This document shows, piece by piece, positions 391 to 45,681 of a stretch of DNA of 45,681 bases (position 1 is its first letter; each line of letters opens with the position of its first letter). The position numbers were made by a program, and so were the translations under genes. The notes beneath the pieces are model-generated. The model did not search any database. It saw only the letters and a list, made by a program, of their open reading frames with translations, and had not been told where the DNA came from. The stretch is taken from assembly GCA_022984795.1 (NCBI GenBank), contig JALIHJ010000088.1, forward strand, positions 1 to 45,681. The letters are read 5' to 3'. The stretch comes from Fabrea salina. Lineage: Eukaryota; Ciliophora; Heterotrichea; Heterotrichida; Fabreidae.

Positions 391-516
391 ATTTATCACC
401 CGCTTTAACTAGTTAGATGATTAATTCGGGTAATCACACTCAAGTCACTGTTCACTAGAAGACAGAAACAAAGTTTAAAGACCACAGAGTTCAAGAATTG
501 ACCTATAACTAATATA

Positions 517-6087: not shown

Positions 6088-6093
6088 TTAAAA

Positions 6094-6675: not shown

Positions 6676-6717
6676 TTAAGCACTCTAGAAGTAATAGGTT
6701 AAAGTACCTGTACATAT

Positions 6718-8145: not shown

Positions 8146-8157
8146 CTTAATATTCCA

Positions 8158-8883
8158 ATGGAAATAAAAGTCAACTCCCACTCGGCCAGAAGACCCAAAA
8201 CAGTTAGGTGCAACTTATGGTAGGGTTTACTTAGTCACCAAGAATTCGGAACTGCCTCACTTCCAATCCACCAAAAGCGCTGTTCCAGAACAGGCACAAA
8301 ACCCACTGCTTTCAAACCACCGCCTAAAAGGAAACCCAAGCAACCCCCTTTGAAGTTCCAAGCTGTCCAAGACGAAGACGGACGCGTTTCTTGCAGACGC
8401 TGTGGAAGGAAGTTCGCCCCTGATAGAATCACCAAGCACGAAACAGTTTGCATAGGACCTATTAACCAAAACCCCAAAAAGCTTCTTCCTGTTGCAAAGA
8501 AGAAACCAGTTAAGTCTGGAATGCCACTTTGGAAACAACAGCACCTGGACTTCATCAACTCAGTGCGCTACGCCAAAAAGATGGACCGAGTTGAAAAGAA
8601 GGGAGGCGACCTTAGAAAAGTCGCACCTCCTCCCCAGTTCCACGATCCTACCCAGCACTACAAGCAGTGTCCTTACTGCTCTCGAAGGTTCAACCCTGAT
8701 GTTGCCCAAAGGCACATTCCTAAGTGTAAAACCACCATCAACAAACCCAAACCTCCTCCCAAAAGCAACCCCAGACCCCAAGTCAAGCCTGTGAAGCCTT
8801 CGCCCCAAACTCGGTGTAGGGTTTGCCGCAAACAAATCTCAGTCAATGCACGAATCTGTGGATCTTGCGGAGCTAGGCGATAA
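8158..8883 (+). CDS. ZC2HC1-type zinc-finger protein (one 15-nt intron)
   Basis: No ATG is in frame upstream of the long open frame unless the 15-nt intron at 8220-8234 is removed. Splicing joins an ATG at 8158 to the rest and gives 236 residues. The splice restores the second Cys of finger 1 (CNLCHQEFGTASLPIHQKRC). Two more C2HC fingers follow (CRRCGRKFAPDRITKHETVC and CPYCSRRFNPDVAQRHIPKC). Each has the C-x2-C-x12-H-x4-C spacing typical of the ZC2HC1/FAM164 family. Pro/Lys-rich linkers separate them, and a C-terminal CxxC...CxxC knuckle (CRVC, CGSC) ends the protein. Members are common in ciliated organisms; their function is poorly known. It is divergent from the CDPK-like gene, with only 12 bp between start codons. 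Confidence 0.85.
8220..8234 (+). other. 15-nt spliceosomal intron
   Basis: GTAGGGTTTACTTAG. It is flanked by GT...AG and carries an A at position 10, five bases before the terminal AG, as in the intron at 27774. Removal fuses TG and T to a Cys codon in the first zinc finger and links the frame to an ATG. It contains an in-frame TAG, so unspliced RNA would not give the full protein. Confidence 0.85.
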
Positions 8884-8911
8884 AGTAATAACCATATTCT
8901 GTTATTATCTA

Positions 8912-11900: not shown

Positions 11901-12136
11901 AGGCTGCCAGAAGTGCCCAAGGCATCTACAACCTGCGTAAAGGACCCTTCCAACTCAAGGACGGGGACCTAATTGCGCTTAGAAACGAACAACTCAACAT
12001 TTCTGGCCAGGACGACTTTCAGTGCGTGAGTGACAAGAAGAAGAAGGAAGAGTACCTTAAAAACAAAAGAGAACAACACGAAGAAACTGCTCCACAAAGA
12101 CCTGAACGAGCAATCAAGATCGGCGACTTTAACTAA
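8912..12136 (+). CDS. USP40: Ubiquitin-specific protease USP40
   Basis: A deubiquitinase of 1,074 residues. The start at 8912 gives MFEDLFIEEGEEDY, which parallels human USP40 (MFGDLFEEEYSTV). The open frame extends upstream to 8846, but that would overlap the preceding gene. The USP domain spans about 40-400. It has the Cys box GLYNQGTTCYLNS (C53), QHDVQEL, a zinc site C176xxC179 with C223xxC226, the His box HSGHYHAYI (H302) and FNDTSV supplying the third catalytic residue (Asn, about 346), so it looks active. The long C-terminal part (about 410-1074) holds several ubiquitin-like segments, as in USP40 and USP47. The N-terminus is lined up with human USP40 from memory; length is also similar (human about 1,235). 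Confidence 0.88.
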   Translation: MFEDLFIEEGEEDYMVLSSEAPRHSNLAETQPTPPNPRGYSSLCGLYNQGTTCYLNSVIQSMFMTPELRKAVFELPLCEGNLETPSNWVPSGQKREILLALQRLFVEMQTLDVSALSTQDLTASFRWTGDEVLIQHDVQELSRVLFDAINRSLSGTPYQDLIYNLYKGTACNQIICKTCGTIREIEEEFWDLLLQVSGFSSLTQSLRSLVKFELLHGDNQYFCEVCNSKSDAEKGYKLKQIPPILTFSLNRFEYDLQTLERKKVTKKFEFPLELDMQEFLGQESKYELFAVVIHIGSAHSGHYHAYIRDLLGTGVWEPVTEESKEFQDLQTELSNEELHQNWFDFNDTSVTPIKSGKIPKQFGGQTETAYMLIYRKASQNTTAELPRVPEYWEPVIENLNQTYKKSREEYEELKNWIEVQVQPAELFAFEDGLVRYLDTQTKLTDQGVSVKARVSFTVSEFKAKVQELFPKDLLWNNYFLVEGIPLSNKYFHLIRKIDLEETVSLQEANFSHKSCFLLVPFSPDPNVAVALENIGEEHEPITINLVVFDEKQPITVNKGWTVEYLMLKVMELSGLSPDTQTLRMLKGYSEDRDIFPNEYSKTLHSLGFYHSMKLSVKLKEEEFPGLPAAQSESSDKVTVLANYEEDPNNVVQHWVSLNSRIKNLVKELKEVFELPNNQPVRLKSHIRNAYFTQEEMNLKLKKIEEFDDGGYRVTVEKGEPPHTGEMVLQIAFEPDEDPKEIFVSPKDKFSMIKPKIEEALGIDMKNYKIYRTDWLREPISVLKNEEQTLQKAVLKDADLLLIKPLDEVLATEMVKLNLFISRTGTPGDCKPLADISVNEETTLAELKEQVFNLPEVYQEDKTPSQIRIRERTNTYWFGKVYREDSKSLKKLNIGFGATLVVQLLNSPDTSSQTALHLFVAERLVEQKEIGPMVSCVFEGGPTPNVDKLYKFCLETLGKDWNLRDVTLAKFIAHKFEWQVIEDQRDPSEKGSLLNQVKAARSAQGIYNLRKGPFQLKDGDLIALRNEQLNISGQDDFQCVSDKKKKEEYLKNKREQHEETAPQRPERAIKIGDFN

Positions 12137-12180
12137 CGAACTTTTGGTAATAGTTAAACTGGTGTATCTGACATATTTTA

Positions 12181-13839
12181 ATGATTTGGCTGTTGCTAGT
12201 TGGAGTTTGTCTAGGTGATGAAAAGACCCACACTTACACTAAAGGAGAGGAAGTGGTTCTTTGGTTCAACAAGTTAGCCCCTGTTAGCAACCCCCAAGAA
12301 ACTTATAGTTACCAAGAAGTGCCGCTTTGCACCGGCAGTAAGAAAAAACACCTTTACTCCTTAGGACTAGGTGAAGCTTTGGAAGGCAACAAACTAACAG
12401 ATAGTGGACTGGACATCCAGTTCCTTGAAAACACCCACAAACAAAGGTTCTGCACCAAAAGGCTTCTGGACTCTGAAGTTTCCAATCTTGCAAGTATGAT
12501 TGCAAGGTCTTTTTGGCTGCAAATGTACATAGACGACTTGCCTATTTGGACAGAACTAGGGAAAGTTGACAAGTCGACAGGGGACGTTTACATATTTACT
12601 CACTACAAAGTGTTGATATCTTTTAACCATGAAAACATCATACAAGCCCAAGTCCACCCTGACTCTTTGCAGAAGATTTTTGACGCAAAAACCAAGTCAG
12701 GTGTTTTAAGTTCACTGGAACTGCACTACTCAGTTTCTTGGCTGTATACAACTATGCCTTTTTCCAGAAGGTTTGAAACTTACCTAGACCCGGGCTTTTT
12801 CGAAAACAACATCCACTGGCTTTCGATTCTGAACTCCTTGCTTATGGTGCTGGTGCTTTGTGGAACTGTAGGACTCATTGTTTGGAAGACTGTTAAAAAA
12901 AACTCTTCTTGGGAAGACTTAGAAGACTCTAACTTTTGGAAGAAAACTGCAGCTTTAAAACCTCCTAAGCACCTGGAACTGTTCACAGGACTCTACAGTT
13001 CTGGAGCCCACATACTAGGAGTGGCTTGTGTAGGACTGGGGGCTTGTGTAGTGCACCCTATGTACGCCCAAAGAGGAATGCTAACAAGTATTTTGTTGGC
13101 AGCTTATACTCTTTTAGGTGTGCTGGGGGGGTATGTTTTTTCTTACTTTTACTGCAGCAACGGAGGCACTAAGTGGGCAGCCACTGGGCTTTACAGTATG
13201 TTTTTGTTTCCAAGTGTAGGAGTGCTGAACTGGTTTCTGTTGCCTAACGCAATTTGGGTAGTTGCTGGAGTTGGAGTGTTTTACGTTCCCTTGTTTGTAG
13301 TTGGTGCTGTGGTTGGACGTGTTGTTTCAGTTAGCATTCCAACTAAGAAGCACTCCTTTTTGCCTTCTCCTTCAACTTTAACTACTAAGCCTTGGTACTC
13401 CAGTCCGGGGTTTTTGGTGGCTTTTGGAGGAGTGCTACCTTTTGGGTCGATTTCAGTGGAAACTTACTTTATTTTTACATCTTTTTGGAATTACAAGTTT
13501 TACTATGTTTACGGGTTTGCAGTGTTGGTGTTTTTGATACTGGTTCTGTGTTTAGTTTGCGTTTCGATAGTTGCCACTTACATTACTTTAAGCAACGAAG
13601 ACTACAGGTGGCACTGGGCGAGTTTTTTGAGCAGTGGAAGTGTAGGAGGTTACCTTTTGCTTTACTCGTGTTACTACTACTTGTTCAAAACCCAAATGGA
13701 AGGTTACTTGCAGACTGCTTACTACTTCGGAGCCACTGGAGTTCTGAGCTTTGCCACATTTTTGGTAGCAGGAGCAATCGGGTACTCTGGGTCACTTTTG
13801 TTCGTCAACAAACTATTTAAGGACGCAAAGAATGACTAA
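12181..13839 (+). CDS. TM9SF3: Transmembrane 9 superfamily protein (nonaspanin), TM9SF3-like
   Basis: A protein of 552 residues. A signal peptide (1-12) is followed by a luminal domain (about 13-210) that parallels human TM9SF3 throughout: HTYTKGEEVVLWFNK, QETYSYQEVPLC, LGEALEGNKL, QMYIDDLPIW, and RRFETYLDPGFF just before the first membrane helix. Nine hydrophobic helices follow; PFGSISVETYFIFTSFWNYK is the most conserved family segment. The C-terminus ends KND, fitting the KxD/E Golgi/COPI retention signal of this family. It probably acts in Golgi or endosomal membrane trafficking. It starts 44 bp after USP40 and ends 11 bp before the BTB gene. Confidence 0.88.
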   Translation: MIWLLLVGVCLGDEKTHTYTKGEEVVLWFNKLAPVSNPQETYSYQEVPLCTGSKKKHLYSLGLGEALEGNKLTDSGLDIQFLENTHKQRFCTKRLLDSEVSNLASMIARSFWLQMYIDDLPIWTELGKVDKSTGDVYIFTHYKVLISFNHENIIQAQVHPDSLQKIFDAKTKSGVLSSLELHYSVSWLYTTMPFSRRFETYLDPGFFENNIHWLSILNSLLMVLVLCGTVGLIVWKTVKKNSSWEDLEDSNFWKKTAALKPPKHLELFTGLYSSGAHILGVACVGLGACVVHPMYAQRGMLTSILLAAYTLLGVLGGYVFSYFYCSNGGTKWAATGLYSMFLFPSVGVLNWFLLPNAIWVVAGVGVFYVPLFVVGAVVGRVVSVSIPTKKHSFLPSPSTLTTKPWYSSPGFLVAFGGVLPFGSISVETYFIFTSFWNYKFYYVYGFAVLVFLILVLCLVCVSIVATYITLSNEDYRWHWASFLSSGSVGGYLLLYSCYYYLFKTQMEGYLQTAYYFGATGVLSFATFLVAGAIGYSGSLLFVNKLFKDAKND

Positions 13840-13850
13840 CTTAATAATAA

Positions 13851-14807
13851 ATGCTTAGCCGACGCGGAAGTGCAAGTCCTTGTCAGGATGTGATTTTCGA
13901 AGCAGCAGAGGACCTTTACAGCAACGCTACTTTAGTTTTCACAAAAGGAGCCCACAAAAGAATCCAGTTGACTCGGCCTCGAGTAGCTTCCTCGTACTGT
14001 TACGAGTTCTGTGGAATGGTAGGCGTTCCCTTTTCAGCTCTAAGGTTCACTCTAGACTCAAGGCCTCTCAACACAGAGTCTTACTTGTTAGGACCTTGTA
14101 TCATTAAAGTCCACCACTCCTGTGACATCCTCCAGAGTTCACAAAACTCACTCCAACCTGCTTTGCTTGACTTACTGAGCACTGGACTCCAAGCTGACGT
14201 GCAAATCAAAACCCGGGACTCTGTTTTTTACGCACACAAGTGCATCTTAATGTGCAGGTCTGCTAAGTTCAAAGCTATGTTTTCTAACTCGATGTCTGAA
14301 GCTGACACTTGCTTGGTGGACTTGGTTGAGACAAGTTCTTTTCTCTTTGACAAGTTACTTAAGTGGATTTACACAGGAAGTGCCATTATGCCTGAGAACT
14401 GGTCAGAGGTTTGTGACTTACTCGTTATGGCAGACGAGTACTTCTTAACTGACTTAAAGATGCGCTGCGAAGAAGACTTAGTTTCTAAGCTCAGACCTGA
14501 CAACTTAATTGAACTTATGGTTATTGCTCACCAACTGCCCTTGCTCAGCAATACACTCATTAACGAATGCAAAGAAATGTTTGTGAAAGAATTCCCCAAA
14601 ATCCGGGACTCCAACCCCAACTTAGAAGAAATGATCAGTTCTGTTCCTGGACTCATGACTGAACTCTTTTCTAGGTTCCACAGAGTCTCCAGCAAAGCCA
14701 GGAAGAGAAGAGTGACTTTCCGGATCAACGAAGACATAGTAGACACTCTAGACGACGTGTCGACAATAAACTCAGGGTACTCCTCCACAGCTAGTTCTTT
14801 TGCGTAA
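13851..14807 (+). CDS. BTB/POZ domain protein with N-terminal ubiquitin-like segment
   Basis: A protein of 318 residues. Residues about 25-90 look like a ubiquitin-like beta-grasp (ATLVFTKGAHKRIQL ... FTLDSRPL). A BTB domain follows at about 105-210 (ADVQIKTRDSVFYAHKCILMC, FKAMFSNSM, LLKWIYTGS), then a short BACK-like helical stretch (about 210-285) and a basic, Ser/Thr-rich tail. BTB-BACK proteins usually serve as Cullin-3 substrate adaptors; that role is inferred here. Its TAA stop (14805-14807) directly abuts the stop of the convergent calcium channel gene, with no base between. Confidence 0.8.
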   Translation: MLSRRGSASPCQDVIFEAAEDLYSNATLVFTKGAHKRIQLTRPRVASSYCYEFCGMVGVPFSALRFTLDSRPLNTESYLLGPCIIKVHHSCDILQSSQNSLQPALLDLLSTGLQADVQIKTRDSVFYAHKCILMCRSAKFKAMFSNSMSEADTCLVDLVETSSFLFDKLLKWIYTGSAIMPENWSEVCDLLVMADEYFLTDLKMRCEEDLVSKLRPDNLIELMVIAHQLPLLSNTLINECKEMFVKEFPKIRDSNPNLEEMISSVPGLMTELFSRFHRVSSKARKRRVTFRINEDIVDTLDDVSTINSGYSSTASSFA

Positions 14808-17800
14808 TTAATGTATTATAGAGATTTCGTCAGGGAACTCCAGTTCTACAGAAATGCTCTTCATAGACTCCACCCACTTCCTCCAGTAGTCCAGAATCTT
14901 CTTTTTTTGCCTGTCTTCCATGATTAGCAACCCCAAGGGAACTAGTTGTTTGTCTAGGCGAGTTTTCTTTTTTCTGAGTTTGTTGAGTTTAAGAACTACT
15001 TCATGTTCTTTTTGGTTTATGTAGTTCTTCACGCCTCTGTTTGCTCCTTTTTTAACGTTTCTGCCGAAATTCCTTTTAAAAACTGCGTAAAGCACGTCGT
15101 TATAAAACAAATACCCTTCTGAATTCACTTTTAAGTCCATAGCTAACAACACCTTCCAAACTGCTTCATAAGGCTCATCTGTGGTTACTCCTAGTTCGGA
15201 GCCTACTTCGTACATAAGTTCAGGAAGTTTTTTGTAGTGAATTACGCACTCTTTTGTGGGTTCTGAGTTAGCTTTCCAAGCAGTTTTGAATTCCTTACTG
15301 AGGGCCACAAACACTCTAAAAATGCTTTCGGGGTTCGTTTTGTAGTCCTCGTAACTCTGAACTACTACCATCAAAAAGATGTTTAGCATGATGAAACTAG
15401 TCATCATCACAAAGCTTAAAAAGTAGACTAAGCACACTGAGTAACTTCTGTGCTCCATAGTGTCAAACATCACATGGTGCCAGTTTTCTCCAGTAGCAAC
15501 TCTGAAAAGGGCCAGCACTGCCATTCCGAAGTTGTCGAAGTTAGTGTACTCGTCCAGCTCCTTACCTCGGACTCCGTAAAACAAGTGGGCACCTAAGATT
15601 GAGTAAATGATCAGTATTAGTGTAAAGATCGACAGCACGTTTAAAATCCCTGGAAGGGAGTTGTAAGCTACGATTGAGATTCCTTCAATTGAATTGAACA
15701 GCTTCGCAGCCTTAAACAGTCTGAAAGCCCTGAAAGTCCTCAAAGCCAAAAGCAACTGAGGTCCTACCCGAATCATTTCGGTTTCTTCCCCAATTGAGTA
15801 GTTCAGAATTAAGTCCACCACTGAACAAACCACCACAAACAAGTCTAAGCAGTTCCACTTTTGCTTGAAGAACTTTTTAAACCCCAACCCAATCACTTTG
15901 ATGACTACTTCAGAAACCAACACAAAAGTAAAGGCCAAGTTCAGGAGTTCCAGCGTCTCCAAGTAAGTAGAAGAAGCTCCTTCGTAAAACATTGCCATCT
16001 GGACCATGTTCAGAGCTATGCAAACCACTATAAACAACTCAAACTTCTTGCTTTTAGCTAATCTGTGACAGAACTTCACTAGTTTGTTTTCAATCTGCTC
16101 AGAAACAAAGGACTCTAGAGACGACTGGGGAATCAGTTGCTGCAGCTCCACCCAAGTTCTTTGAGGTTTGGTTAAAAAAGCAGTGAAGGAGCTTTCGTCG
16201 TTTTTTGCTTTCATGAACTGTTCAAATATAACTCCAACCAACAAGTTTAGCAGAACAAAGCAAGAAACCAAAATGAAACTCACAAAGTAGTAAGCAGAGT
16301 AAGGCCCAGTAGTTTCCACTGCGTGGTACATTATGTCTGGCCAGCCTTCAAGTGAACTAACTATCCACAGTGTTAGCATACCTTCTAACACGTTGTCAAA
16401 ATTAGTGTATGCTTTAACCCAGGTGTAGCCATACTCTTCACACTCAAACTGGGTTTCTAAAGCTATGTTCTCGCAGGAGTAAAACTTTCCTCCAAACAAA
16501 GTGACTCCCAAAATAGCAAACAGCAGCCATATAATGAGTATGACAATCATTACATTCAAAAGAGCCAGAATTGACTGGAACAGAGCTTTGACCACTACCC
16601 TCATAGACACATTCTGGGAAATGAACCTCAAGGGCCTCAAAGCTCTGAGCAGCCTAAATGCCTTAATGGCTTTGAGTTCTTGCAGGAAAACTACTTCTGC
16701 CAAACTCACAACAACTATCAAAAAGTCTAGTTGGTTCCACTTGTTGCGCAAGTAAGTGCCTTTTTCCAGTACAAACCCTGCAGCGGTCACTTTCACCAAA
16801 ACTTCTAGTACAAAAGCCACCACTATGGCTACATCAAAGTAGTAGGATACTTTTACTTCTTGGGACTCTTCTGAAGCATTTAGTAGGTAAGTGTCCCACA
16901 CTAAGTTCATAGTGCTGAGTAGTATAAGTGCCAAAACAACCCTGTCAAAGTTCTCTGACCTACACAACTTAATGCAGAACTTCCTGAGTTTATTTTGTTT
17001 TCTGAAGACAAAACAAGTTTTCTTTTCCGTGATTTCTGAACTCACAATAGAATTTTGTCTGGAAAAGTTTCTCTTTGTAGTAAGCTCCTCACTACTGTCT
17101 AGTTCTTGGTTATGAAGTAAGTTGCTGACTTTTTCAAATTGTTTAAGGCGTTTGATTCGGGACTTTTCGCGAATGTTCCTTATAATGGTTTTTTTTCTGG
17201 AGTCTTTGGGTGCCTCTTCTTCCTGGGGTTCACTGAAAGACTCCAGCAGTATTGCAAGGAACATGTTCAGAATTAAAAAATTGCCCAAAAATATCCACAA
17301 AAAGAAAAAGATTAACCCAAAGTACCCCAATTCACTCCTGATTGCACTGTAGAGCACATCTGGCCAGTTCTCCATGGTCAGCAACTGGAACACGGTCACG
17401 AAAGACCAGTTAAAAGAGTCAAAGTTAGCTTTTGGAACTTCTTCTTCAAAGTTAAACTTGCCTCCAAACATTTCCATCCCAAGCAGGGCAAATACCACCA
17501 AAAACACCATTAAAAACACTCCCAAAGACACAAAATTCGAAAAGTTCTCTGCCAGCACGTTGAGTATACGAGTCAATGGCTCTAAGTAACTAAAAAGCTT
17601 GGCAACTCGAAGAAGCGATAAAGTTTTAATTGTTTTGAAGGCCGACACTGAAGAAGTCGTGTCTTCAAACAATATGACTTCCAGTAAACTCAGCACAACC
17701 ACTGTTGCGTCGAAGCAGCACTGGAAGTCCCCAAAGTAGCCCTTCAGGCCATAGCCAAAAAGCTTCAATGCCATTTCAGCCACAAAAACAAAAGTAAACA

Positions 17801-19763
17801 CCAAGTTTGCGAAGTAAACGAAAGTTTTTAAGTCTTCAGGTGCTCCGTAGTGGTCTACTGACAAAACTGCAGTGTTCAAAATGATGCACACCAGTATTGT
17901 GCTTCTGAAGCCCGAACTGTCTACAAAGCTCTTCAAGAAACTAGAAGTTTTTGCTAGTGCTCCTCTTAAACCACTTTCCCAGAGCACCAGTTCCATTTCA
18001 GAGAGCTTCCGGGCAAATTCTGAGTTTTTACTGTCGTTGTTGCTTACCTGAAATCCAGACCATTTCCCCACAACGACTAGTTGCTTTCTGTCAGTTCCAA
18101 AAGTTTCCTCAACAGTAATTTTTGCATAACAATTAACTGCTTCAAAAGCTCCTTGACACCCATACTTTTTAGAAAGCGAATTGAAAACTCCAAACTTAGT
18201 TTTTACTGGTTTTTGGAGACTCTCAGAGTCTTCTAGGTCAAAGGACTCAAACTCAAGTTGCGGGGCTTCATTTTCATATTTGAATGTATAAGTTTGGCTT
18301 TTCCTAAGTTGCATTCCTAGTTCTTCTGGGATCACGTCTTGGCTGGACTTACTAGAAACAGTAAAGTCTTCTCTAATCTGGGCTTTCAGTTCTTGGTCCG
18401 CAAAGAGTTTAGTTTCTTTCCTCACGAGACCAGAAACTTGCTTTACCTCCCCAGAAATTATCGTGCTAAAGTAGTTTGTTTGTCTAGGTTCATTCTGGGA
18501 GTTTTCACTGTATTTTTGGTGCTGCCTGCTTATCAGCATCTCAATTATTGTTTCAGTAGCTAAGTTTTCTTGGACTTTAGAGTTCTTTTCTTCAGGTCCT
18601 TCTTTGACTGAGTTCATGGCTTCGTTGAATTCAGAGTTGATCACTGCAATCACTAAGTTCAGAATGAAAAAAGACCCAAAAACAACCAAAGGCAAAAAAA
18701 GAAAAATTGCTGAACTTCCTAAGGCTCTCTGGGCGTCATTCATTACTTCAGTCCAACCTTCCAAGGTAACACACTTAAACACAGCTATCAAAGCAGAAAA
18801 TATGTTGTCGAAGTTAGTCGCTCCCCAGTTAGGGTTGTCTAGTCCCTTTACACACTCGTAGTTCCCTCCACACTCTCTGTTGCCACAGATCTCGTCCCCA
18901 AGAACTCCACTTTCCATGTCCAAACACCTCATTTTAAAGGTCCCTGCTAAAGTATGCAGTCCCATTATAGCAAAAATAGCTAAAAAGAACATTAAAATCA
19001 AAGTAAAGGTAAATAGCGGCTTTAGACTTCCTATCAAAGCTTCAAAAACTACTCTTAAGGCCTTAACTGAGGCAATGCTTCTCAAAGGACGGAGTAAACG
19101 GACACTCCTTAGAGCGGCTAAGTTAACTATCTCGTCTGCAAAGTAGTCCATCCACCCAGACACCACTATCAAAAAGTCCAGAATGTTCCACGTTTCCCTG
19201 AAGTAAGTTCCTTTTCCGAAAAATAACCCCTGTGCCAGCATCTTAATGAAAGCTTCAGCTGTGTAGATGTAAAGAACCAGATTTTCGAACTGTTGGAGGT
19301 AAGGTTCTTGTTCCTCTACTAAGGGATTCTCAAGACCCATTGCAATGATGTTCAGGAATATCACTCCAGTGATAAACCACTCAAAGCTCCTTGAATTTAC
19401 TAGCACCCTACAGAGTTCTCTGGTTGCTTCTTTCATCCTCAAAAGGGCCTTTCTCAATTCAAGTAGAGGGTATTTACTCTGCATGTTGTCTATCTCTTCG
19501 TACTTGTTCAAATTTCTAACTATAAAGTAAGTATCTGCAGTTTTAGTTTGGTGCTCTACTTCAGCAGCCTTTTCCAAGACTTTGCGGTAGTCTTCGTAGG
19601 ATTCAATCGACCCATTATTAGGTGAAATCAAACTTTGGCTAAAGTCTCTGTCGTTTATTCCCAAGCTTTTCTTAGCTTTGGGGGAACTAACTGCTGAAAA
19701 AAGATTTGGCTCAAAGTCTAAATCAAGTTGAACTCTTCTTAAACTACCCACTGCTTCCTTCAT
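14808..19763 (-). CDS. Four-domain voltage-gated calcium channel alpha subunit
   Basis: A protein of 1,651 residues, intronless. It has four homologous six-helix domains at about 125-390, 610-845, 930-1190 and 1230-1480. Each pore filter carries Glu: TLEGW (E335), TMENW (E798), SLEGW (E1139), TGENW (E1426). This EEEE ring is the signature of Ca2+-selective Cav channels. S4 sensors have regularly spaced Arg/Lys (LRSVRLLRPLRS; FKTIKTLSLLRVAK; IKAFRLLRALRPLR; LRTFRAFRLFKAAK), with domain II weakest. The III-IV linker has QRTWVELQQ. The C-terminal tail carries the EF-like/pre-IQ region and a basic end. In ciliates such channels underlie the ciliary Ca2+ action potential that reverses or arrests beating; that role is inferred. 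The stop abuts the BTB gene stop. Confidence 0.95.
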   Translation of the reverse strand: MKEAVGSLRRVQLDLDFEPNLFSAVSSPKAKKSLGINDRDFSQSLISPNNGSIESYEDYRKVLEKAAEVEHQTKTADTYFIVRNLNKYEEIDNMQSKYPLLELRKALLRMKEATRELCRVLVNSRSFEWFITGVIFLNIIAMGLENPLVEEQEPYLQQFENLVLYIYTAEAFIKMLAQGLFFGKGTYFRETWNILDFLIVVSGWMDYFADEIVNLAALRSVRLLRPLRSIASVKALRVVFEALIGSLKPLFTFTLILMFFLAIFAIMGLHTLAGTFKMRCLDMESGVLGDEICGNRECGGNYECVKGLDNPNWGATNFDNIFSALIAVFKCVTLEGWTEVMNDAQRALGSSAIFLFLPLVVFGSFFILNLVIAVINSEFNEAMNSVKEGPEEKNSKVQENLATETIIEMLISRQHQKYSENSQNEPRQTNYFSTIISGEVKQVSGLVRKETKLFADQELKAQIREDFTVSSKSSQDVIPEELGMQLRKSQTYTFKYENEAPQLEFESFDLEDSESLQKPVKTKFGVFNSLSKKYGCQGAFEAVNCYAKITVEETFGTDRKQLVVVGKWSGFQVSNNDSKNSEFARKLSEMELVLWESGLRGALAKTSSFLKSFVDSSGFRSTILVCIILNTAVLSVDHYGAPEDLKTFVYFANLVFTFVFVAEMALKLFGYGLKGYFGDFQCCFDATVVVLSLLEVILFEDTTSSVSAFKTIKTLSLLRVAKLFSYLEPLTRILNVLAENFSNFVSLGVFLMVFLVVFALLGMEMFGGKFNFEEEVPKANFDSFNWSFVTVFQLLTMENWPDVLYSAIRSELGYFGLIFFFLWIFLGNFLILNMFLAILLESFSEPQEEEAPKDSRKKTIIRNIREKSRIKRLKQFEKVSNLLHNQELDSSEELTTKRNFSRQNSIVSSEITEKKTCFVFRKQNKLRKFCIKLCRSENFDRVVLALILLSTMNLVWDTYLLNASEESQEVKVSYYFDVAIVVAFVLEVLVKVTAAGFVLEKGTYLRNKWNQLDFLIVVVSLAEVVFLQELKAIKAFRLLRALRPLRFISQNVSMRVVVKALFQSILALLNVMIVILIIWLLFAILGVTLFGGKFYSCENIALETQFECEEYGYTWVKAYTNFDNVLEGMLTLWIVSSLEGWPDIMYHAVETTGPYSAYYFVSFILVSCFVLLNLLVGVIFEQFMKAKNDESSFTAFLTKPQRTWVELQQLIPQSSLESFVSEQIENKLVKFCHRLAKSKKFELFIVVCIALNMVQMAMFYEGASSTYLETLELLNLAFTFVLVSEVVIKVIGLGFKKFFKQKWNCLDLFVVVCSVVDLILNYSIGEETEMIRVGPQLLLALRTFRAFRLFKAAKLFNSIEGISIVAYNSLPGILNVLSIFTLILIIYSILGAHLFYGVRGKELDEYTNFDNFGMAVLALFRVATGENWHHVMFDTMEHRSYSVCLVYFLSFVMMTSFIMLNIFLMVVVQSYEDYKTNPESIFRVFVALSKEFKTAWKANSEPTKECVIHYKKLPELMYEVGSELGVTTDEPYEAVWKVLLAMDLKVNSEGYLFYNDVLYAVFKRNFGRNVKKGANRGVKNYINQKEHEVVLKLNKLRKKKTRLDKQLVPLGLLIMEDRQKKKILDYWRKWVESMKSISVELEFPDEISIIH

Positions 19764-19844
19764 AGTTTTATTATTATGAATTAACTTCCCAAAAATTCAA
19801 TTCTATATTTCTAACAACCCAACTAAGGTTTATTGTACAACAAA

Positions 19845-34773: not shown

Positions 34774-35800
34774 ATGGAACACTCACATTCCAGGCTGGCT
34801 GACAAGTTTCCCAGGCACAAAGAACCAGCATGCAAAACTAAGGACAAAGAAGCCATAAACAACTGGATTAAAAGTTTGGACACTTCCAAGATGAGTGTCA
34901 TCGAAAGAATGACTCTAGACATAAACCGCAGAGAACTCCTCAAAGCTGGGTCTTTGGAAACCAACGACTTCAAACCCAAACCTACGAACAAGCAAGTCTT
35001 TGAAAGACTCACTCAAGACGTCAGCAGAAGAACTGAACACCAAAAACTGGTAGAAAACTTCAAAAAGTCGCAAGAAAATGAGTCACTTGCTTCAAAGAAA
35101 GTAGGGAGCAAGGACCAAGTAAACCGTGTGGTTTCAAGACTAAACGCAGACGCTTTGCTGCGAGAAGAACAAGAAAAACTCAGGCAGAGGTTCAAACAAC
35201 TCCAAGAAGAACAAAGCATAGTTAGGAGCCAGTGCGTTGATGTTGCCCAACAAATCGAAATAGGCAAACGACTCAACTCTGAAGCCCAAAGAAGGGAAGA
35301 AAAACTCGAAACTCTCAGAAAACAAAAAGAAGTCTTAGAAAAACAAGAAATTCACCGAATGCAACACAAACTCCATCCTAACCGCAAGCCCGACCCACTT
35401 GTCCTAGAACGCCTCACTAAAGTCAGATCAAACTCAATCACTAGTGAACAAAGTGCGAAGCAGTCCAAAAGAGTGTTCAATCTCGAAGAAACTAAAAGGT
35501 CTGGAGAAAGACTAATGAACAGCCACAAACACCTCAAGAGGTCCGAAACCCCCAAAACAACCACCAAAAAGGTATCTGCCCAAGAATTGACTTCTATTGT
35601 TGATAGACTCTACCACAATAAATCATTCGAACGCCAAAGGGCTTCTTCTAAACCTGACGCAAGGCACAAAAACAACAGGAAGCCTCGCTCTTCGCTAAAT
35701 AGGAAGTCAGTAACTCCCCAATTCAAACCTTGTGAAACTGAAGTATGTCCAGTTCCTGCACTGTATATTCCAAAGCCCCAAAAAATTCCAGAAGACTACC
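34774..35800 (+). CDS. Coiled-coil protein with R-L-x-x-[DN] repeats, 3' end lost at telomere junction
   Basis: About 342 visible residues, Lys/Arg/Glu-rich and helical. A short motif recurs about every 30-45 residues: ERMTLDINRR, ERLTQDVSRR, SRLNADALLREE, KRLNSEAQRREE, ERLTKV, ERLMNS, DRLYHNKSFERQ. The last recalls the RLYxDAxxR motif seen in many protist cytoskeletal proteins. A coiled coil spans about 125-200. I infer a structural role, perhaps cortical or basal-body. The frame runs straight into the telomeric tract at 35801, so its true C-terminus is missing and the open frame to 35826 is artificial. It starts 15 bp after VIRMA. Confidence 0.7.
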
Positions 35801-36793
35801 AACACCCTAACACCCTAACACCCTAACACCCTAACACCCTAACACCCTAACACCCTAACACCCTAACACCCTAACACCCTAACACCCTAACACCCTAACA
35901 CCCTAACACCCTAACACCCTAACACCCTAACACCCTAACACCCTAACACCCTAACACCCTAACACCCTAACACCCTAACACCCTAACACCCTAACACCCT
36001 AACACCCTAACACCCTAACACCCTAACACCCTAACACTCCTAACACCCTAACACCCTAACACCCTAACACCCTAACACCCTAACACCCTAACACCCTAAC
36101 ACCACCCTAACACCCTAACACCCTAACACCCTAACACCCTCAACACCCTAACACCCTAACACCCTAACACCCTAACACCCTAACACCCTACCACCCTAAC
36201 ACCCTAACACCCTAACACCCTAACACCCTAACACCCTAACACCCTAACACCCTAACACCCTAACACCCTAACACCCTTAACACCTCTAACACCCTAACAC
36301 CCCTAACACCCTAACACCTAACACCCTAACACCCTAACACCCCCTAACACCCTAACACCCTAACACCCTAACACCCTAACACCCTAACACCCTAACACCC
36401 TAACACCCTAACACCCTAACACCCTAACACCCTAACACCCTAACACCCTAACACCCTAACACCCTAACACCCTAACACCCTAACACCCTAACACCCTAAC
36501 ACCCTAACACCCTAACACCCTCAACACCCTAACACCCTAACACCCTAACACCCTAACACCCTAACACCCTAACACCCTAACACCCTAACACCCTAACACC
36601 CTAACACCCTAACACCCTAACACCCTAACACCCTAACACCCTAACACCCTAACACCCTAACACCCTAACACCCTAACACCCTAACACCCTAACACCCTAA
36701 CACCCTAACACCCTAACACCCTAACACCCTAACACCCTAACACCCTAACACCCTAACACCCTAACACCCTAACACCCTAACACCCTAACACCT
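35801..36793. repeat. Telomeric tract, (CCCTAACA)n, about 124 units, left-end orientation
   Basis: About 993 bp of CCCTAACA with a dozen or so variant units (inserted or lost bases, for example CACTCCTAAC and CACCACCC). The C-rich strand reads 5' to 3' on the plus strand, so this is a left-hand chromosome end belonging to the sequence on its right (36794 onward). No gene is present. Confidence 0.97.
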
Positions 36794-38492
36794 GAACTTT
36801 CAGAGAAGCTTTTAATGACTGGCTGGAAAGAGCAATCCCCTTACACATGGTTAGTCTGTTGTCAATCCAAACTCTGGAGTTGAGGCTTAGTTTCATAAGT
36901 TCTTAAAAAGTCAGAAGGGATCACAAACCAGAACTGGGGAGTCTGTTGAGGCTTCTCGTAAAGTTTCTCCATCTACTTCACTGCCGTCGTTGAGTTTGGA
37001 ATTTTAGGTCAGAGGGGCTGGGATTCATGTAGCTAGGAAGAATAGCGTAAATGTAGTTATTGTGGCAGTAGATAAACAAATTGAAGTAAGTTGCACTTGT
37101 GTAAGTTTGAAGAAGATAGTGGTTTGAAGGACAATCACCAATATCGAACCCATTCAAGATTGCCTTGTTTTGTCCTTTGTAAACAAATGGACGTTTGTTG
37201 CTGTTAAGGGTATTAGAGCTCAGGTCCAGTCTTTTGATCAGAGGGAAATCCATTTCTTTGACCACTCCCAGGCATCTCTACTCCCATAACAAAAGAATTG
37301 CGCCCTGCTGAGTTCAGGTGCTCTACTTCTAAGTAGTAGGATTCTCCTGCTGTCAAAGCTATAGAGTTTGACTTATTACCTTCCCATATGAAGTAAGTAT
37401 GTTCATCTGACTCCTCACTCGCTGAATTAATTATTTCTTGCTTGTTGAGAGGGTTGGAGTCGGTACTCAGGTAAACTCTAACACTCCTCTGAAAGAAACA
37501 TAGGAATGTATGCTCCCCTGTTCTGGTGGATTGAAGAGTCCGTAGATGAGCGAATCGTAGTTGTCCATGGTCGTAAGAATAGCTGCTGAAGGAATGACTG
37601 TTCTCTGAACTAGTTCACTCTCCACTCGAATGCTTCCTGGGTTGTGCTCTCTGACCAATCCCGCACTTCCTCATAGTAGTTTCTGTTCTTCAAATCGAAA
37701 TAGACTCCACTGCTGCACTTAATAGTGTTGAAGCTCGCTTCTGAGACTTGGCATGGTGATCCATCTACTTCTACCTGGACTCTAGAAGTGTCACTAGGAA
37801 AGGATTTCCCTGTGACTGTAACAGCTACTCCTTGTTCTAAATTAGCTGACACTGACTCCACAGCACCTATAGTTCTGAACCAGTACTGCTCTCCTTCTAG
37901 ATTGTACCCTGATTTCCAGTAGACTCCTTTTAGCCTACCTGAAGTATTATATTCCACACTCTGGTCCCCGTGCACATTATTGCCTACTTGTACTAAGAAT
38001 GTAAGGATTAGAGTTTTCTACATATTCACTCTCGAATATTGCTTCTACTCCGTTTACTTTTAAATGGTCAATATGATCCTTTTAATTTCTTTGTGAAGAA
38101 AACAAAGGCTAGTAATATCTTGAGCAGTTCCTTCGCTCGGAATCAAAACTAATGCGTAGCCACCCCAGCCCCACCTAATTGATTGCTGTCAGTATGAGTA
38201 TATTGAAACGGAGCGCAGCACTTCTAAGTCGGGGTATGACCCATCATCATTGTGGTTCCAAGGAGGAATGAGGCATTCGATTGTTTCTGCCCTTTTAATA
38301 GAAAGTATTTCCTACACTCACTTGCTCCTAGCCTAACTTGGTAATTTTGAGGGTTCAAATCGTCTGTAAAGTCCCCTTAGTAAAAAAAGGCTGCTTAAAC
38401 CGTTAAAGCGGTCGGGTCAATGGCTTTATTATTCGAGTAGCTATGTTAGTAACCGTCGCTGCTTGGCATAATTTTAGCAATAGCAAAATCAT
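36794..38492 (-). CDS. PKHD1-like secreted/surface protein, 3' end cut by telomere (copy 2)
   Basis: Starts at the ATG ending at 38492 with signal peptide MILLLLKLCQA and reads leftward. In order: an IPT/TIG-like segment; another IPT/TIG (AVTVTGKSFPSDTSRVQVEV, CQVSEASFNTIKC at about 37720-37850); a PA14-like segment (YDSLIYGLFNPPEQGSI, about 37500-37560); then ESYYLEVEHLNSAGRNSFV, typical of PKHD1-family repeats (about 37290-37350). Coding character continues in shifting frames up to the telomere (VWIDNRLTMCKGIALSSQSL). So the gene lacks its 3' end on this molecule. The frame is broken by several indels, which I attribute to read error. Probably a large extracellular protein; adhesion or surface roles are only a family-based guess. 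Confidence 0.55.
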
Positions 38493-38623
38493 ATTTATCA
38501 CCCGCTTTAACTAGTTAGATGATTAATTCGGGTAATCACACTCAAGTCACTGTTCACTAGAAGATGAAACAAAGTCCACTCTAAAGACCACAGAGTTCAA
38601 GAATTGACCTATAACTAATATAA

Positions 38624-41600
38624 ATGTCTGAATCCCTAGGCACTTTCAGAGAAAGCAACGAAGAAGAAATTTACGACTTAATGAACAACGGAGTTTACAG
38701 GTACGACCCAGAAGAGGTCAAAGAAGTCCTTAAAGACAACATCATTTCCAAAAAGTTGTCTAAACTGCTCAACTTCTACGAAAAGCCCAACCCACAAAGC
38801 AGAGAAAGGTCCAAAAGTCAGAGATGAACTTAGGAGGCACCCAAACCTTCAAAGAAGTACTTAAGACCTTTGTAGTTGAGTTGTCCCAGAAAAATCGAAC
38901 TCCAAGAAGAACAAACTTCAGGACTTAGTTAGGGTGTTTTATAAAGCACCAAGCACTCTTCAACAAACTCAAAGGCGAAGAAGGCGACCAGGTCCGAAAA
39001 GACTTCCAGGTCCTGTTTAACCCCATCACTCAGTTGTACTACAACGAGCGTATTACTCTTCTTAAGACTTTAGAGTCATTGTAGGCACCAGCAGGGCAGA
39101 AGGCAACCCAGGACAGCTTCCTTGTCTGGAGTTTTTGGGAGAAGCTTTCAGAGAAAAACCTGCTGAAAACCTTGTTTGGGAACTTTACTGCCAAACTTCT
39201 GCGCGGGAAATTCCCAACAGGTTTACGCTCCCCAAGAACGCGAAGAGTGGATTCTGCAGTGCTTGCAAGAACAAAGGAACTCTTTAGAAATCTTAGTTCT
39301 GGCCCATAATGCCTTTGCACACATTGGCTCTGCAAGGTTCCTAGACTACCTGCAAACCCTTTCACTAAACAAGAGTTCCAAGGCAACTTCAAACAACTTT
39401 ACAAAGACTCTTTTTGGCTGAGTACAAACTAGCCCAGACTGCTGATTTCCCAAATAGGAGACTTAAGCATGTTTGTGTTGTTGTCTGCAGTGAGACTCGA
39501 CGCCTTTGCTGAAAGAGGGTTCTTGGAAGGATTCAATCCCCACAAAACCCTTACAGCTTAATTAACAACCAAGAAAAAACACACCTAAGATCCTTGAGTT
39601 CTTCAAAACACTTTTAGAAGGCAATGAGTTTGTGAGTGAACACATGGGATCAGTCGTGGTGAGTTGGTTGTGCTTGATGACTTGGGCCCAAACCCTTCCT
39701 CAAGGCTACACTGTGTTTAGCCCAGGAGACCAAGATCCCGTTCAACAACTAGCCACTAAGTTCTACGTGCTGGACTTTCTCCGCAACACCACTCAGAGAA
39801 ACCTTCCAGGACTCCTCTTTAGAAGTGGCTTCAGCCCTCAACATATCCCTCATGAGTTTGGTTTCCTGCTGTTCAGTCACAAACCAACGTAGAGATGGCA
39901 AAGGACTACGGAGTCTTTGTAGAAATAACTTGTGCTTGTCTCAGGAACCAAGGCTCTTCAGAAACACTCAAGCACTTTTGGTACGAAGACTTTCCTAACC
40001 AAGTAGGCCTCTACTCTATGCTGCACCACCTAAGCATGAAGTTCCCCCACGACGGAGAACTCTTCTCAAGTTCGTGAACGTTTTTAATAGGGCAACTCTG
40101 AGAACCCCTACGCCGAAGAAGTCATCAAGTACCTAGACACCCTAACTCACTTCACTACAGTGGTGAACTTGAGGAAGTGATGTCTAACCCAGACCAAAGC
40201 TCTGGAGTACGCCCGTGGCTGCAAGCCAACTAGTGTCTTCTACCAACCAAAGAAACATGATAATAATTCCAGGCAGGACCAGAGCTAAAAAGCTTGAGAG
40301 CAGGGCAGAACTCGACTTTAGTGAGCTCAACATCAGGTACTCTTTCTGGCCTTTGTGTTTAACTACTGGGAAACAGAAGTCCAAAGGATCAAACGGGTAC
40401 CCCTACACCACTCAGGACTTAAAAGTTTTGTTCGAGTACATCAAACTAGTTTGCGAAGTAGTCATGATTGACCCTCTGTGACTCCTGCCTTAGAAAGTTC
40501 GGCTTAAGGGAACCTGCAAACCACCCCTTATCCACGTTACCCGGAAGAACTCCTGAAGTCCCCAAGACCGAACTAGTTTACTTACTGATAGAGTCCTTTA
40601 TAGAGCTTTCGAAGCTGACAAACACTCCTTTAGAAGTCCTTCAGAACTAATAGAAACCACTCTGGCAGTTTACGCAAGTGAAAACAAAAGAAGTAGAGAA
40701 CCACGCAGTTGCTACTGTTTTAGCGAGGGTTTCAGCTGCTGGCACGGTACAAGGGGATATTCCAGACTCACACCCCCTGTTTCTTTCAGCAAGCAAACTC
40801 AGAAGCGTAGAAAAAGAAGCTAAAGTAAATACAACGTAAGTTTAGCAATGATGGAGTTGGTGTCCCACATCTTGGAAGACGAAGCTGTGCTGCTTCTGTA
40901 CCCACTTGAAGACTCTGTTGTGATCCAGGAGTCCCTTAAGGTTCGGCTTAACTGAAGTTTTGCCTGAGTGTTTTTGTGGCCTGACAACTACAAGTGGCAA
41001 GCTAGTAAAACTAACTTTGAAGTTCCTAGAAAACTTGGTCTCTAAGTACTCAGTTCGTCAAACAAAAGCCTCCTTCAACCAAAGGAACTCCTTACTGAGT
41101 TTAATCACTACCCAACTTAACAAAGTTGGACTGTGCACAGTTTATCTTGCACTCCTTAAGGGGTGTCTCACTACTTAAACGAACTTGAAGAAATGGTTTT
41201 TGAAAACGTGCACTGGACCCACGCTACCAAGAAGCATGAGTTCCAAGCCGAAGACCTCAGAAGCATCAAAACCATGGTTTTCAGGGGACTGAGTTTGCTT
41301 AAGTTAGTTTACTGAACTAATCATTTACACAGAACAACTTCCAAGAGCACGGACTAGACTTTCTGCACTTGATTCGTGAAATGAAGTCAGCAGTTTCCAC
41401 AGACTCTGAGTGAAGACTCCCTTCCTTTAGTGACTGCTTTGATGTCTTGCTATAGACTTTGCCTTTGAGCTCCTTAGTTGAAGAAACCCAAGAAACATTG
41501 CTTTGGTTGCTTTGGAAAACATCACTTGTTTGTGATTATTTGGAAGAACTCAGTCCAAAAACCCGCCTTTTGAAAACTTCTTCTCTTCAGGCACACAAAT

Positions 41601-44237
41601 GATCAAAGACAACTTTTTGAAGCACTGTTCTGAAAGCTTTATTCCTGAAAAAACCAACAGTTCAGTGCAGCTGCAGCTAGGCATGCTGGAACCTCTTGTT
41701 AAAGGCTCTTGCCTTACCAAGTGTCTTTGCAACTCTTGTTTGCTTCTCAGAACTTCTCACAGGAGTTCACCCTAGTTGTAGAAGCTTACAAAATGCTTCC
41801 GAGAGAAGAGTCCAGCACTGAAAAGATGCAACTTTTAGAGCACTACTTGTGTTTTTATGAACAGTTAGTTCTTTGTGAGCACAACTACTCCATTTTGGAG
41901 TCTTTAATTGGGTCCAAAGAAAAGCTGATTTCTTCGTTTATAGAAGCTGTCAACAAAATGTTTTCTGAAACCAAAGAACCTTCTGGGTTCGAAGCTTGTG
42001 TGTGCATGCACTGTTACTCACTTGTGTTCAACTTACTTACTGTGTGCCACCACCAAAACCCAAGTTCTCAAACGACTCCTTGAGTTGGTGTTCAGAAGCC
42101 AAGTACTGGCTAAGTTCCTGTTGGGAGTGAAGAGTTGCTTGACTGAAATGACTCTCTACAGAATGCAGGAAGCCAACAAACAAACTGGCAGACTGCACAC
42201 CGACCTCGCTTTGGAAGATTTTGCTGTAAGGCAACTCGACGACTGCCCAACTGGAAGTTCTTTGAGTGCAACTCCAACCAGTACGGCACTAAGTTCCAAC
42301 CGACAGTTTAAGAATGACTTTGGCTCTGAAATGTGTGGAGTGCCTGCTTCGTTTTTGGGAGACTTGATTAGCATTGCAGAAACTTACAACGTCGAAACTT
42401 CACTATTGGACTGCCAAGAGCTTATGATGGACAGTTTCAAAAAGCTGTTTGGAGTGCTTTCGAGTTATGGAACTAAAGGAGAACCACTTACGGGCCTGCC
42501 AGTTCCTTGGCACTTTGAAGAAACCAAACAAGTTAAGTTCGTGGTGGGGTCCCAGGGTCCTGAAGCTTCAGCAGAGTGTTTTAGAATACTTACAGTGGTT
42601 GTGGAGAGTTTGTGGTTGGACACCAAAAAAGAACTCAACATCTTTGTAGACTTAGTGAGGAGGAAACTTAGAACACAGGTACCAGATTTTGAGTTTTTGC
42701 TACAACTTAGCTTTGCACATAACTACTGACTCCAAAAACGAAGCTGTTGAAAGAGCTAAGGACGAGTTCTTCAACTGCTCAATTAAAGTCCTTTGCTGAA
42801 ATGCACGAGTTCCTTGGCCAAGTCCAGTTCTTGAGTCCAGACTTACTTACTTTGCTGATCCTCATGGAAGGATTCTTTAAGATCTGCAGAAATCCAAGGA
42901 CGTCCAGGCCAGTTTGTAGTTTCAATGATTCCTCAACTAAAAAGGTTCTTAGTAGCAGACAGTCCTTCGTTTGCACTGTTGATAGCTCTGATTACTGAAA
43001 GTTTGAAGTTCATGAAAACAGAAGACTACCCCTACATCTTCAAGAACTTAGGCGTCACCAGAGTGCTTTTGAGAAAATCATGAACCCCCGCTGCACTCAC
43101 CAAGACTTCTTAGCTGCCATTAAGTTCTGCCAAGCTTACTCCAGCAACAAGCAGTGTGCCAGACAGCTTTTGTCAGAACGCATTTGGTCCAGATCTCGAA
43201 CTCCCCAACTATCAAGGACTTCCAAACTGAGTACGAAGGCAAGCAATAAAACCCCAAACACATTCTGTGGTGCTGGGCTCTGTGGATGATGAACGGCATG
43301 CACGACACTCTTTGACGACAAAGCTTTTCATTCAAGCATGGACTTTCTGAACTCTTACTCTGAAAGAGTCACTAAAGTCCTTAGGTTCAACTACGTAACA
43401 GAAGGCAGGTACGGAGGCCACATTGCTAGTAGCAAGCAGTTTTCTCTGGCTTACGTGGAGGAACTCCAGCTCCTAACTAGTTTGCTGGCAAAGCTTTCTT
43501 CGAACTCAAAACTGTGGAGGTCTTCCCACAAGAACTCATTGGAGTTGTGGCTCAGTGAAGCTTATGCAGCACACCTTCAGGGCCTTTTCTTCACAGGCAG
43601 AGACTCTCCAGAACTTCCCACCAATTTCTGAATGAAGACGCCTTAACAGCTAAAACAGTCAGTGGAACTCCCGAAACACCTACCAGAGTGTCTCACCAGA
43701 AGAAAGAGGACTATTTTTGACAGAGTCCAAACTACTTACTACGAATACATCCCTAAGTCCCAACCTTCAGGATTTTCTTTTCAGTATAGAAAGTGGATTA
43801 CTGCGTTCACTATACACTGATCACGGCTTTGATACAACAAGCCCAGTTCGACAAACACGTGCCTTTCCAACAGCACTTTACTTGACTCCTGCAAGTTTGT
43901 GTTGCTGTACTACACAAAACTTAAGGCCAACCACAACATCTACCTGTAAACTAGAAAAACTAGCCAACTCTTTGATCAAAAGTGCAGAGTTTTCGCTTGC
44001 TTACGGTTCACTGAACCACCTCTTCGAACTAGACGGAGAGTCAACTGCAGATGGCAAAAGAAAGTTTTGAAATGAGTTTTACTACTTTTGAAGTCAGACT
44101 TAGCTACGAAGAGCGAACTTAAAGCAGAAGCACAAGGAGTGTTAACTGGGTGGATTGGCCAAGTCGAAACTTCAACCTTCAAGACACGAGCCAGAAGACC
44201 CCTTTATAGCTTGATGCAAGAACAAGTTAGAGTTTAA
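38624..44237 (+). CDS. NUP188: NUP188 nucleoporin, copy 2 (start present, frame interrupted)
   Basis: This copy supplies the real start: MSESLGTFRESNEEEIYDLM at 38624, preceded by an AT-rich leader. The following KLLNFYEKPNPQSRE and, near 39010-39060, the LFNPITQLYYNERITLLKTL stretch fit the human NUP188 N-terminus. Around 41610 it reads through the point where copy 1 shifts frame near 3445 (MIKDNFLKHCSES). Elsewhere it shifts frame many times through single-base indels, each at a place where copy 1 is intact. The two copies are therefore best read as one gene seen twice, not as a gene and a decaying paralogue. Confidence 0.75.
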
Positions 44238-44243
44238 TTAAAA

Positions 44244-44819
44244 ATGATTTGGGTGATATTGGTTTGTCTAGAGCAGCCCAAGACGCTTCACAGGAATCCA
44301 GCAACTTGACCTGGAGTCCCAACTTGAAAACGGTCTCTTTGGTTCACTTGTTTGTCTGTGGTTAGGAGTGCTTACGAACGCGACTCAGAAACAATCCAAA
44401 AAGTAGCCCAAGAAAACAACTTGCCTGAAGACCGTTTGCAACACAAAGTGATGGCTGACGTTCTGCTGAAGTGCTCGAATTCCTTGAGCAACCAAAAGTT
44501 GAAGAGATCCTAAACACTGAAAACCTAGACCTAGAAGACCCTGAAGTTAAAGAAGCAAGTCAGGTAGACCTGCAGAGTTTCAGTAACGAAGAGGACTTAG
44601 AACTCACTGAAGAGCAACTGAAACTTTTGGACGACATCAACTGGGAGCTCAAAAGCACAACAGTTTGTTCAAGCAAATGAAGAACTCCAAAACCAAATAG
44701 GCATTCTTCCAGCTCCTGTTTACTATGGAAGTTTGGTGTTTGGGATGATTTTTCTGTTTGGGTTGTTCTTTTTAGGTATAAAGTTACTTAGCCAAAAGCC
44801 TAAAAAAAAGAAAAAGTAA
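44244..44819 (+). CDS. Small type I membrane protein, copy 2 (frame interrupted)
   Basis: Second copy of the gene at 6094-6675, beginning MIWVILVCL and ending in the same transmembrane helix and KKKKK tail. At least three single-base losses (for example near 44270 and 44310) break the frame compared with copy 1. They are probably sequencing error. It is the only gene besides NUP188 that lies wholly inside the telomere-capped segment. Confidence 0.7.
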
Positions 44820-44860
44820 TTAAGCACTTAGAAGTAATAGGTTAAAGTACCTGTACATAT

Positions 44861-45253
44861 TCACACTTGCGAAAAGAACAATGTGCTGGAATTCTTTTAA
44901 GTCGATTTCCTGTCCCCGTTTTGGTCCACTAACTGAATGAATTCTTCCCTAAACTTGCTGGTTGCACTTGTTATCTCCTTGAAGTATTTTCTGAGTTCTT
45001 CTGAGGAAATACTTCCACTTCCGTCTCTGTCAAACACTTTAAAGGCTTCGTTTAAGTTTTCTTCTGAAAGCACAGTTCCAACGTTGAAGCTTCCTTTAAA
45101 AACTCAGTGTAGTCTATGAACCCACTGCAGTCTGCATCAAGCTTCTCCAAGGACTTGGTTAGCAAGTTCAGAAGCTGCTTCAGAGTCCACTAACTTAAAA
45201 CTACTAAGTTCTTCAAAGTCAAGTTTTCCGTCCCCTTTGGGAGTCAATAGTTC
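44861..45253 (-). pseudogene. 3' fragment of the CDPK-like gene, cut by telomere
   Basis: Matches 6718-7114 and encodes only the C-terminal EF-hand region (from about residue 344). The promoter side, start codon and whole kinase domain would lie to the right, where the telomere begins. The last shared bases are GAGTCAATAG then (C/T)TCTG; beyond them copy 1 continues into the gene and copy 2 into TTAGGTGTTAGGG. On this molecule the gene cannot be expressed from its own start. Confidence 0.85.
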
Positions 45254-45681
45254 TGTTAGGTGTTAGGGTGTTAGGGTGTTAGGGTGTTAGGGTGTTAGGG
45301 TGCTAGGGGTGTTAGGGTGTTAGGGTGTTAGGGGTGTTAGGTGTTAGGGTGTTAGGGTGTTAGGGTGTTAGGGTGTTAGGGTGTTAGTGTTAGGGTGTTA
45401 GGGTGTTAGGGTGTTAGGTGTTAGGGTGTTAGGGTGTTAGGGTGTTAGTGGTTAGGTGTTAGGTGTAGGGTGTTAGGTGTTAGGGTGTTAGGGTGTTAGG
45501 GTGTTAGGGTGTTAGGTGTTAGGTGTTAGGTGTTAGGGTGTTAGTGTTAGGGTGTTAGGGCAAGTTAGGGTGTTAGGGTGGTGTTAGGTGTTAGGGTGTT
45601 AGGGTGTTAGGGTGTTAGGGTGTTAGGGTGTTAGGGTGTTAGTGTTAGGGTGTTAGGTGTTAGGGTGTTAGGGTGTTAGTG
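45254..45681. repeat. Telomeric tract, (TGTTAGGG)n, right-end orientation, to window end
   Basis: About 428 bp of TGTTAGGG with many irregular units (lost G, TGTTAG without GGG, a stray CAAG near 45560). The G-rich strand runs 5' to 3' outward, as it must at a right-hand chromosome end. The high irregularity compared with the left tract suggests single-read base-calling noise. The tract reaches the window edge. Confidence 0.97.

Follow-up and report, generated by a model that had tools for sequence, protein, structure and literature searches.

The closest described counterpart of the locus analyzed here is found in the heterotrich ciliate Blepharisma, which has CCCTAACA as its telomere unit (PMC9942806). 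In Blepharisma stoltei, potential sites of alternative telomere addition number 46,705, of which 38,686 were seen in one read (PMC9942806). HiFi reads with telomeres at both ends make up 1.3% in Blepharisma, some of them being as short as 4 kb (PMC9942806). Widespread capped isoforms resulting from alternative fragmentation have also been described for the nanochromosomes of Oxytricha (PMC6937825).

The window, i.e., the whole stretch of DNA that was analyzed here, is the entire Fabrea salina contig C90 (45,681 b), which belongs to an assembly of 18,328,466 b in 103 contigs. Its last 9.9 kb, from here on the tail, consist of a segment flanked by two telomere arrays. As in Blepharisma stoltei, the telomere unit is CCCTAACA and the caps lie inside otherwise continuous somatic sequence (PMC9942806); whereas genome-wide HiFi reads are at hand for that species, the Fabrea example is a single case known from an assembly only, of low quality and fused to another fragment. 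Nesting of short forms in longer ones is shared with Oxytricha, where both are telomere-capped; however, that organism is a spirotrich with gene-sized chromosomes and its isoforms appear as complete single reads (PMC6937825). Short two-telomere forms are thus already known from the related ciliate Blepharisma, and the Fabrea case is best read as one of that kind. A literature search on Fabrea, which did not cover the species genome paper (Mol Biol Evol 2022, msac062), returned no title on telomeres or chromosome forms. If confirmed by reads, alternative telomere addition and two-telomere minichromosomes would extend to another heterotrich with an 18-Mb somatic assembly.

Caps and gene content of the segment

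The features of the window are as follows; C77 and C3 are further contigs of the assembly.

1-35800, plus strand: body of the contig, without a telomere at base 1; sequence quality is poor over the first ~1.2 kb
18-7114, plus strand: second copy of the segment, from segment base 1,244 on, running past the right telomere site
34774-35800, plus strand: part of an open frame that spans 34774-35826 and is truncated at 35800 by the join; without a Pfam match
35800-35801, no strand: abnormal join, at which unique sequence is followed immediately by a CCCTAACA array attached by its distal end
35801-36793, plus strand: CCCTAACA array, left cap (TRF)
36794-45253, plus strand: segment between the caps, a copy of C77:40144-48641, ~97% alike, with more gaps than substitutions
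36794-38510, minus strand: part of a gene, by comparison with C77, where the copy is the ORF C77:40405-41847 with TIG and PA14 domains
38624-44237, plus strand: copy of a 1,884-aa ORF, by comparison with C77, with 75 frameshifting indels
44238-44819, plus strand: copy of a 195-aa ORF (5 frameshifting indels), the product of which was earlier described as a small membrane protein
44861-45253, minus strand: 3' part of a protein-kinase/EF-hand gene, by comparison with C77, cut by the right telomere
45254-45681, plus strand: TGTTAGGG array, right cap and end of the contig (TRF)

TRF reports the left array at 35801-36792 with a period of 8, 122.8 copies and 97% matches, and the right array at 45254-45679 with 54.8 copies and 88% matches. 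In the rest of the window, apart from 35801-36793 and 45254-45681, CCCTAACA occurs once as an exact unit and TGTTAGGG not at all, and this near absence excludes a chance origin of the arrays. In full agreement with the sequence-only reading, the 8,460 b at 36794-45253 are capped at both ends by arrays in capping orientation, as confirmed by TRF and by the count of exact units. Five bases (ACACC) are common to genome and telomere at the left site, and two (TG) at the right site. These shared bases would be compatible with priming by telomerase, a weak indication when taken alone. With regard to array length, the array at the start of C24 (C24:1-5576) seemingly extends over ~5 kb, positions 540-1000 and 4500-4900 having been read as array, and those at other contig ends are shorter, with roughly 0.4-2 kb.

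Two whole and two cut genes had been assigned to the segment. Their extents hold in the comparison with C77, but the reading frames are broken in the capped copy, and a single stop-to-stop frame of at least 150 aa is present within 36794-45253. The kinase domain of the protein-kinase/EF-hand gene lies, by its coordinates, beyond the right cap. The name NUP188, previously proposed for the 1,884-aa ORF, finds no support in Pfam (no match at E ≤ 0.001), in a search against PDB sequences (best match at E 0.16, to an unrelated protein) or in the fold: residues 1-1,199, folded as a single sequence, come out mostly helical with a mean pLDDT of 37, a value at which the confidence is useless.

The gene at 36794-38510 has ~40 matching places in the genome, and in C77 and C3 homology extends to the left of the telomere site. 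The family has several members per contig on C31, C43, C56, C58 and C77; near-identical copies aside, its members are 67-86% alike, and TIG and PA14 domains are present in the one member examined. A transposon with telomeric ends was considered and rejected. The start of the segment matches ~40 places (43 rows), yet arrays are found in 4 of the 20 stretches examined, namely at three contig ends and at a join in C77, and in C77 and C3 the homology does not stop at the telomere site but runs on beyond it on the left. Subtelomere copies of the left-end type also reside inside C9 and C12, with no array in the adjoining 351 and 331 b, respectively.

The uncapped long form and a variant at its left side

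C77:40138-48643 aligns to 36788-45255 with 96.9% identity. Within C77:30000-60000, all but one base of which was examined, a single array is present, running from 57474 to about 58077, and neither cap is therefore present in C77. The left telomere site is uncapped at C77:40138-40144 and at C3:9034, and C3 contains no telomere array in its 11,978 b. The right site is uncapped at C77:48641 and at position 7112 of the window itself. The short capped form and the long uncapped form thus both occur in the assembly and, since the segment is uncapped on both sides in C77, both caps are internal to a longer chromosome form. The earlier proposal of alternative telomere addition gains support here, as both sites lie in sequence that continues uncapped elsewhere (C77, C3 and C90). 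Judged from the sequences, the caps are best read as alternative telomere additions within a longer form, and that longer form would be C77.

The body of C90 had itself been taken for the long form. This does not hold, because 1-35800 starts 1.24 kb inside the segment, while C77 spans both sites. It is correct, on the other hand, that most of the segment duplicates 1-7114: window positions 18-7114 match 38037-45255 at 94.5%, with 142 gap openings and 79 mismatches. The first 1,243 b of the segment (36794-38036) are absent from the left part of C90 and present in C77 and C3. The left copy is better read after its first ~1.2 kb, and C90:18-15948 as a whole aligns to C77:41371-57473 with 98.6% identity.

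The left side of the segment carries a second variant of the locus. At 25 substitution sites between 36794 and ~37.8 kb (about the first 1.1 kb of the segment), the tail has the letter of C3 where C77 deviates; the reverse case, a letter shared with C77 and not with C3, does not occur, and at one site each of the three sequences has a different letter. From 39.3 kb on, there are four sites near the right end of C3 at which C3 alone deviates. Between C3 and C77, there are 72 substitutions up to about C77:41,250; the next stretch, as far as 42,750, is free of them, and four more follow at the end of C3. As the tail carries the letters of C3, its left side derives from a molecule of the C3 type and not from re-use of the reads behind C77. 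C3:7224-11976 and C77:38334-43067 are two versions of the locus, which are unlike each other to the left of C3:7224. They look like two haplotypes or paralogue arrangements, with a divergence that ends abruptly.

Sequence quality and joins near contig ends

A three-way alignment of 38037-45255 with the left copy in C90 and with C77 comprises 7,327 columns. Private to the tail are 92 deleted and 45 inserted positions, together with 77 substituted ones (~3%), and every 600-column bin contains such private differences. Those of C77 amount to 6 insertions. For the left copy in C90, 40 substitutions, 179 deletions and 8 insertions were counted, all but one within its first 1.8 kb, i.e., at the tip of the contig; past the first 1.2-1.8 kb, it agrees with C77 almost throughout. 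In the 5.65-kb ORF, the tail shows 78 indel events, 75 of which shift the frame and nearly all of which involve 1-2 b; the left copy has 21 such events, 19 of them frameshifting. Of 72 substitutions in the tail, 40 lie within 5 columns of an indel. Deletions outnumber insertions in nanopore reads, as they do in the tail. Over 7115-15948, the alignment of C90 with C77 shows 5 substitutions and 6 gap columns, which assigns the low quality to tip and tail and not to the locus at large. Because of this low quality, with ~3% private differences and 75 frameshifting indels, the capped copy is probably based on a single read or a small number of reads.

It is the distal end of the left array that abuts 35800, and the array at 35801 therefore cannot cap 1-35800, a feature for which the sequence-only reading gave no explanation. 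Head-to-head joining of chromosome ends, i.e., TGTTAGGG followed by CCCTAACA, was rejected, since there is no G array in front of the C array at this join. A second join of the same type is found in C77 (67,077 b), where unique sequence extends to 57473, a C array starts at 57474, and 9 kb repeating the start of the contig follow. C77:58102-60000 corresponds to C77:1-1909 and C77:66078-67077 to C77:7994-9004, both at 97%; the difference of ~3% between tail and start could be due to error in either copy. C90 crosses the C77 join site unbroken and in ordinary sequence, the site being located inside an ion-channel ORF (window 14808-19796). Microhomology at the C77 join amounts to at most 1 b, and extra bases are absent. 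Examination of this join for an adapter remnant yielded none, which makes a fusion of reads by software unlikely there. In C19, a clear join of the distal end of an array to non-telomeric sequence is present at ~285526, with 374 b examined beyond it; the tail starts with sequence found near many contig ends (40 rows). A further join of this kind, at ~291216 in C17, is graded as probable because the sequence covered beyond it comprises about 50 b and the array could resume. The distances of the joins from the right contig end are 9.9 kb for C90, 9.6 kb for C77, 2.6 kb for C19 and 0.6 kb for C17, such that the first two tails are of similar length.

The census behind these figures targeted distal array ends beside non-telomeric sequence and returned 56 rows over the 103 contigs; the sensitivity of the pattern, simulated beside perfect units, was 91%. 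Six rows fall on the joins (two each for C90 and C19, one each for C77 and C17). Eleven more were inspected by sequence and are not joins: interrupted arrays account for those on C24 (three rows, one of them partly covered), C85, C73:74224, C7, C56, C14 and C90:45419, and a stub of ~20 b at the contig start for the two on C57. The remaining 39 rows were judged by the matched letters and their position only. The joins in C90, C77, C19 and C17 are most likely chimeric molecules absorbed into contig ends, because the same type of join recurs near contig ends and is followed by poor sequence in C90, the contig in which the drop in quality after the join was seen; chimeras in a long-read library would leave such a pattern.

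In C90 as well as in C77, the joined piece comes from the contig's own locus. Random ligation is inadequate to account for this; either an intramolecular process or selection by the assembler is needed. Such own-locus tails would be explained if a polymerase had switched templates inside a single branched molecule, or if the assembler favored self-closing paths. A preference for joins within one molecule is also a feature of the chimeras formed during multiple displacement amplification, more than 85% of which are inverted while more than 70% start at 2-21 b of complementarity (PMC1855051). Unlike most of those chimeras, the C77 and C90 joins have direct orientation, and that in C77 has at most 1 b of complementarity.

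Origin of the capped tail

In the explanation that we consider probable, a two-telomere isoform molecule became attached in vitro to a fragment with a broken end. The isoform would have been a short linear molecule of the macronucleus, in which gene-dense DNA (8.46 kb) was flanked by telomeres of ~1 kb on the left and 0.4 kb on the right. It would have arisen when telomerase capped two breaks in a longer chromosome, represented by C77 with the C3 variant at its left side, while the somatic nucleus developed. This minichromosome may then have been physically joined to the broken end (35800) of another fragment of the same locus, through ligation or polymerase template switching during sample or library preparation, and the assembler would have retained the chimera as the tip of C90. 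The orientation of the arrays, the long form without caps, the poor quality of the tail and the repeated occurrence of this type of join are directly visible in the sequences. That both caps belong to one molecule appears likely, and we infer that telomerase made both caps and that the join arose in vitro.

The tail could instead be a composite, in which reads capped at 36794 were merged with others capped at 45253, such that a single 8.46-kb molecule never existed. We consider this unlikely. Linkage of the caps is not shown by assemblies, and telomere-bearing Blepharisma reads are as frequent as 1 in 8, those with two telomeres making up only 1.3% (PMC9942806). However, the private differences of the tail fill every bin of the alignment from end to end, and the total length of 9.9 kb including the arrays would fit one read.

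It is improbable that the caps themselves are artefacts of amplification or library construction, produced by a template switch to telomere DNA. Telomere-ended chimeras do seem to occur in this assembly, and chimeras from multiple displacement amplification are mostly intramolecular, most of them using short complementarities (PMC1855051). Yet both caps present the proximal side of a long array to the genome, as telomerase would leave it, whereas the abnormal joins described above use the distal side of the array.

We regard it as very improbable that the join at 35800 already exists in the cell, with circular or concatenated somatic molecules arising by fusion of broken chromosome ends with the telomere at their own opposite end. 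The return of the C77 and C90 tails to their own locus in direct orientation would fit such fusions, but the tail of C90 is unpolished and ends in a second telomere rather than continuing round a circle, C90 runs through the C77 join site without a break, and the three clear joins and the probable one in 103 contigs are each located near a contig end. Even less credit is given to a mixed state in which broken ends of this chromosome fuse to their own left telomere, such that circular or concatenated forms with one telomere array at the junction occur in the somatic nucleus alongside short two-telomere forms. Least credible of all is a stable, separate small chromosome representing a diverged duplicate of the locus: the letters of the C3 type at the beginning of the segment (about 1.1 kb) and the 77 private substitutions in the rest would agree with it, but of the 78 indel events counted in the long ORF, 75 are frameshifting and nearly all have a length of 1-2 b, and 40 of 72 substitutions lie within 5 columns of an indel, as in raw reads.

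Contig tips in this assembly can hold abnormal telomere joins and frame-broken duplicate genes, which would inflate gene counts. Contig ends of a different kind were observed for C39, where the matches to a subtelomeric query at 1920-6258 and 233552-237890 are mirrored exactly, with coordinate sums constant at 239810; by these coordinates, the two ends resemble an indel-free inverted repeat of several kb, either real or a palindromic artefact.
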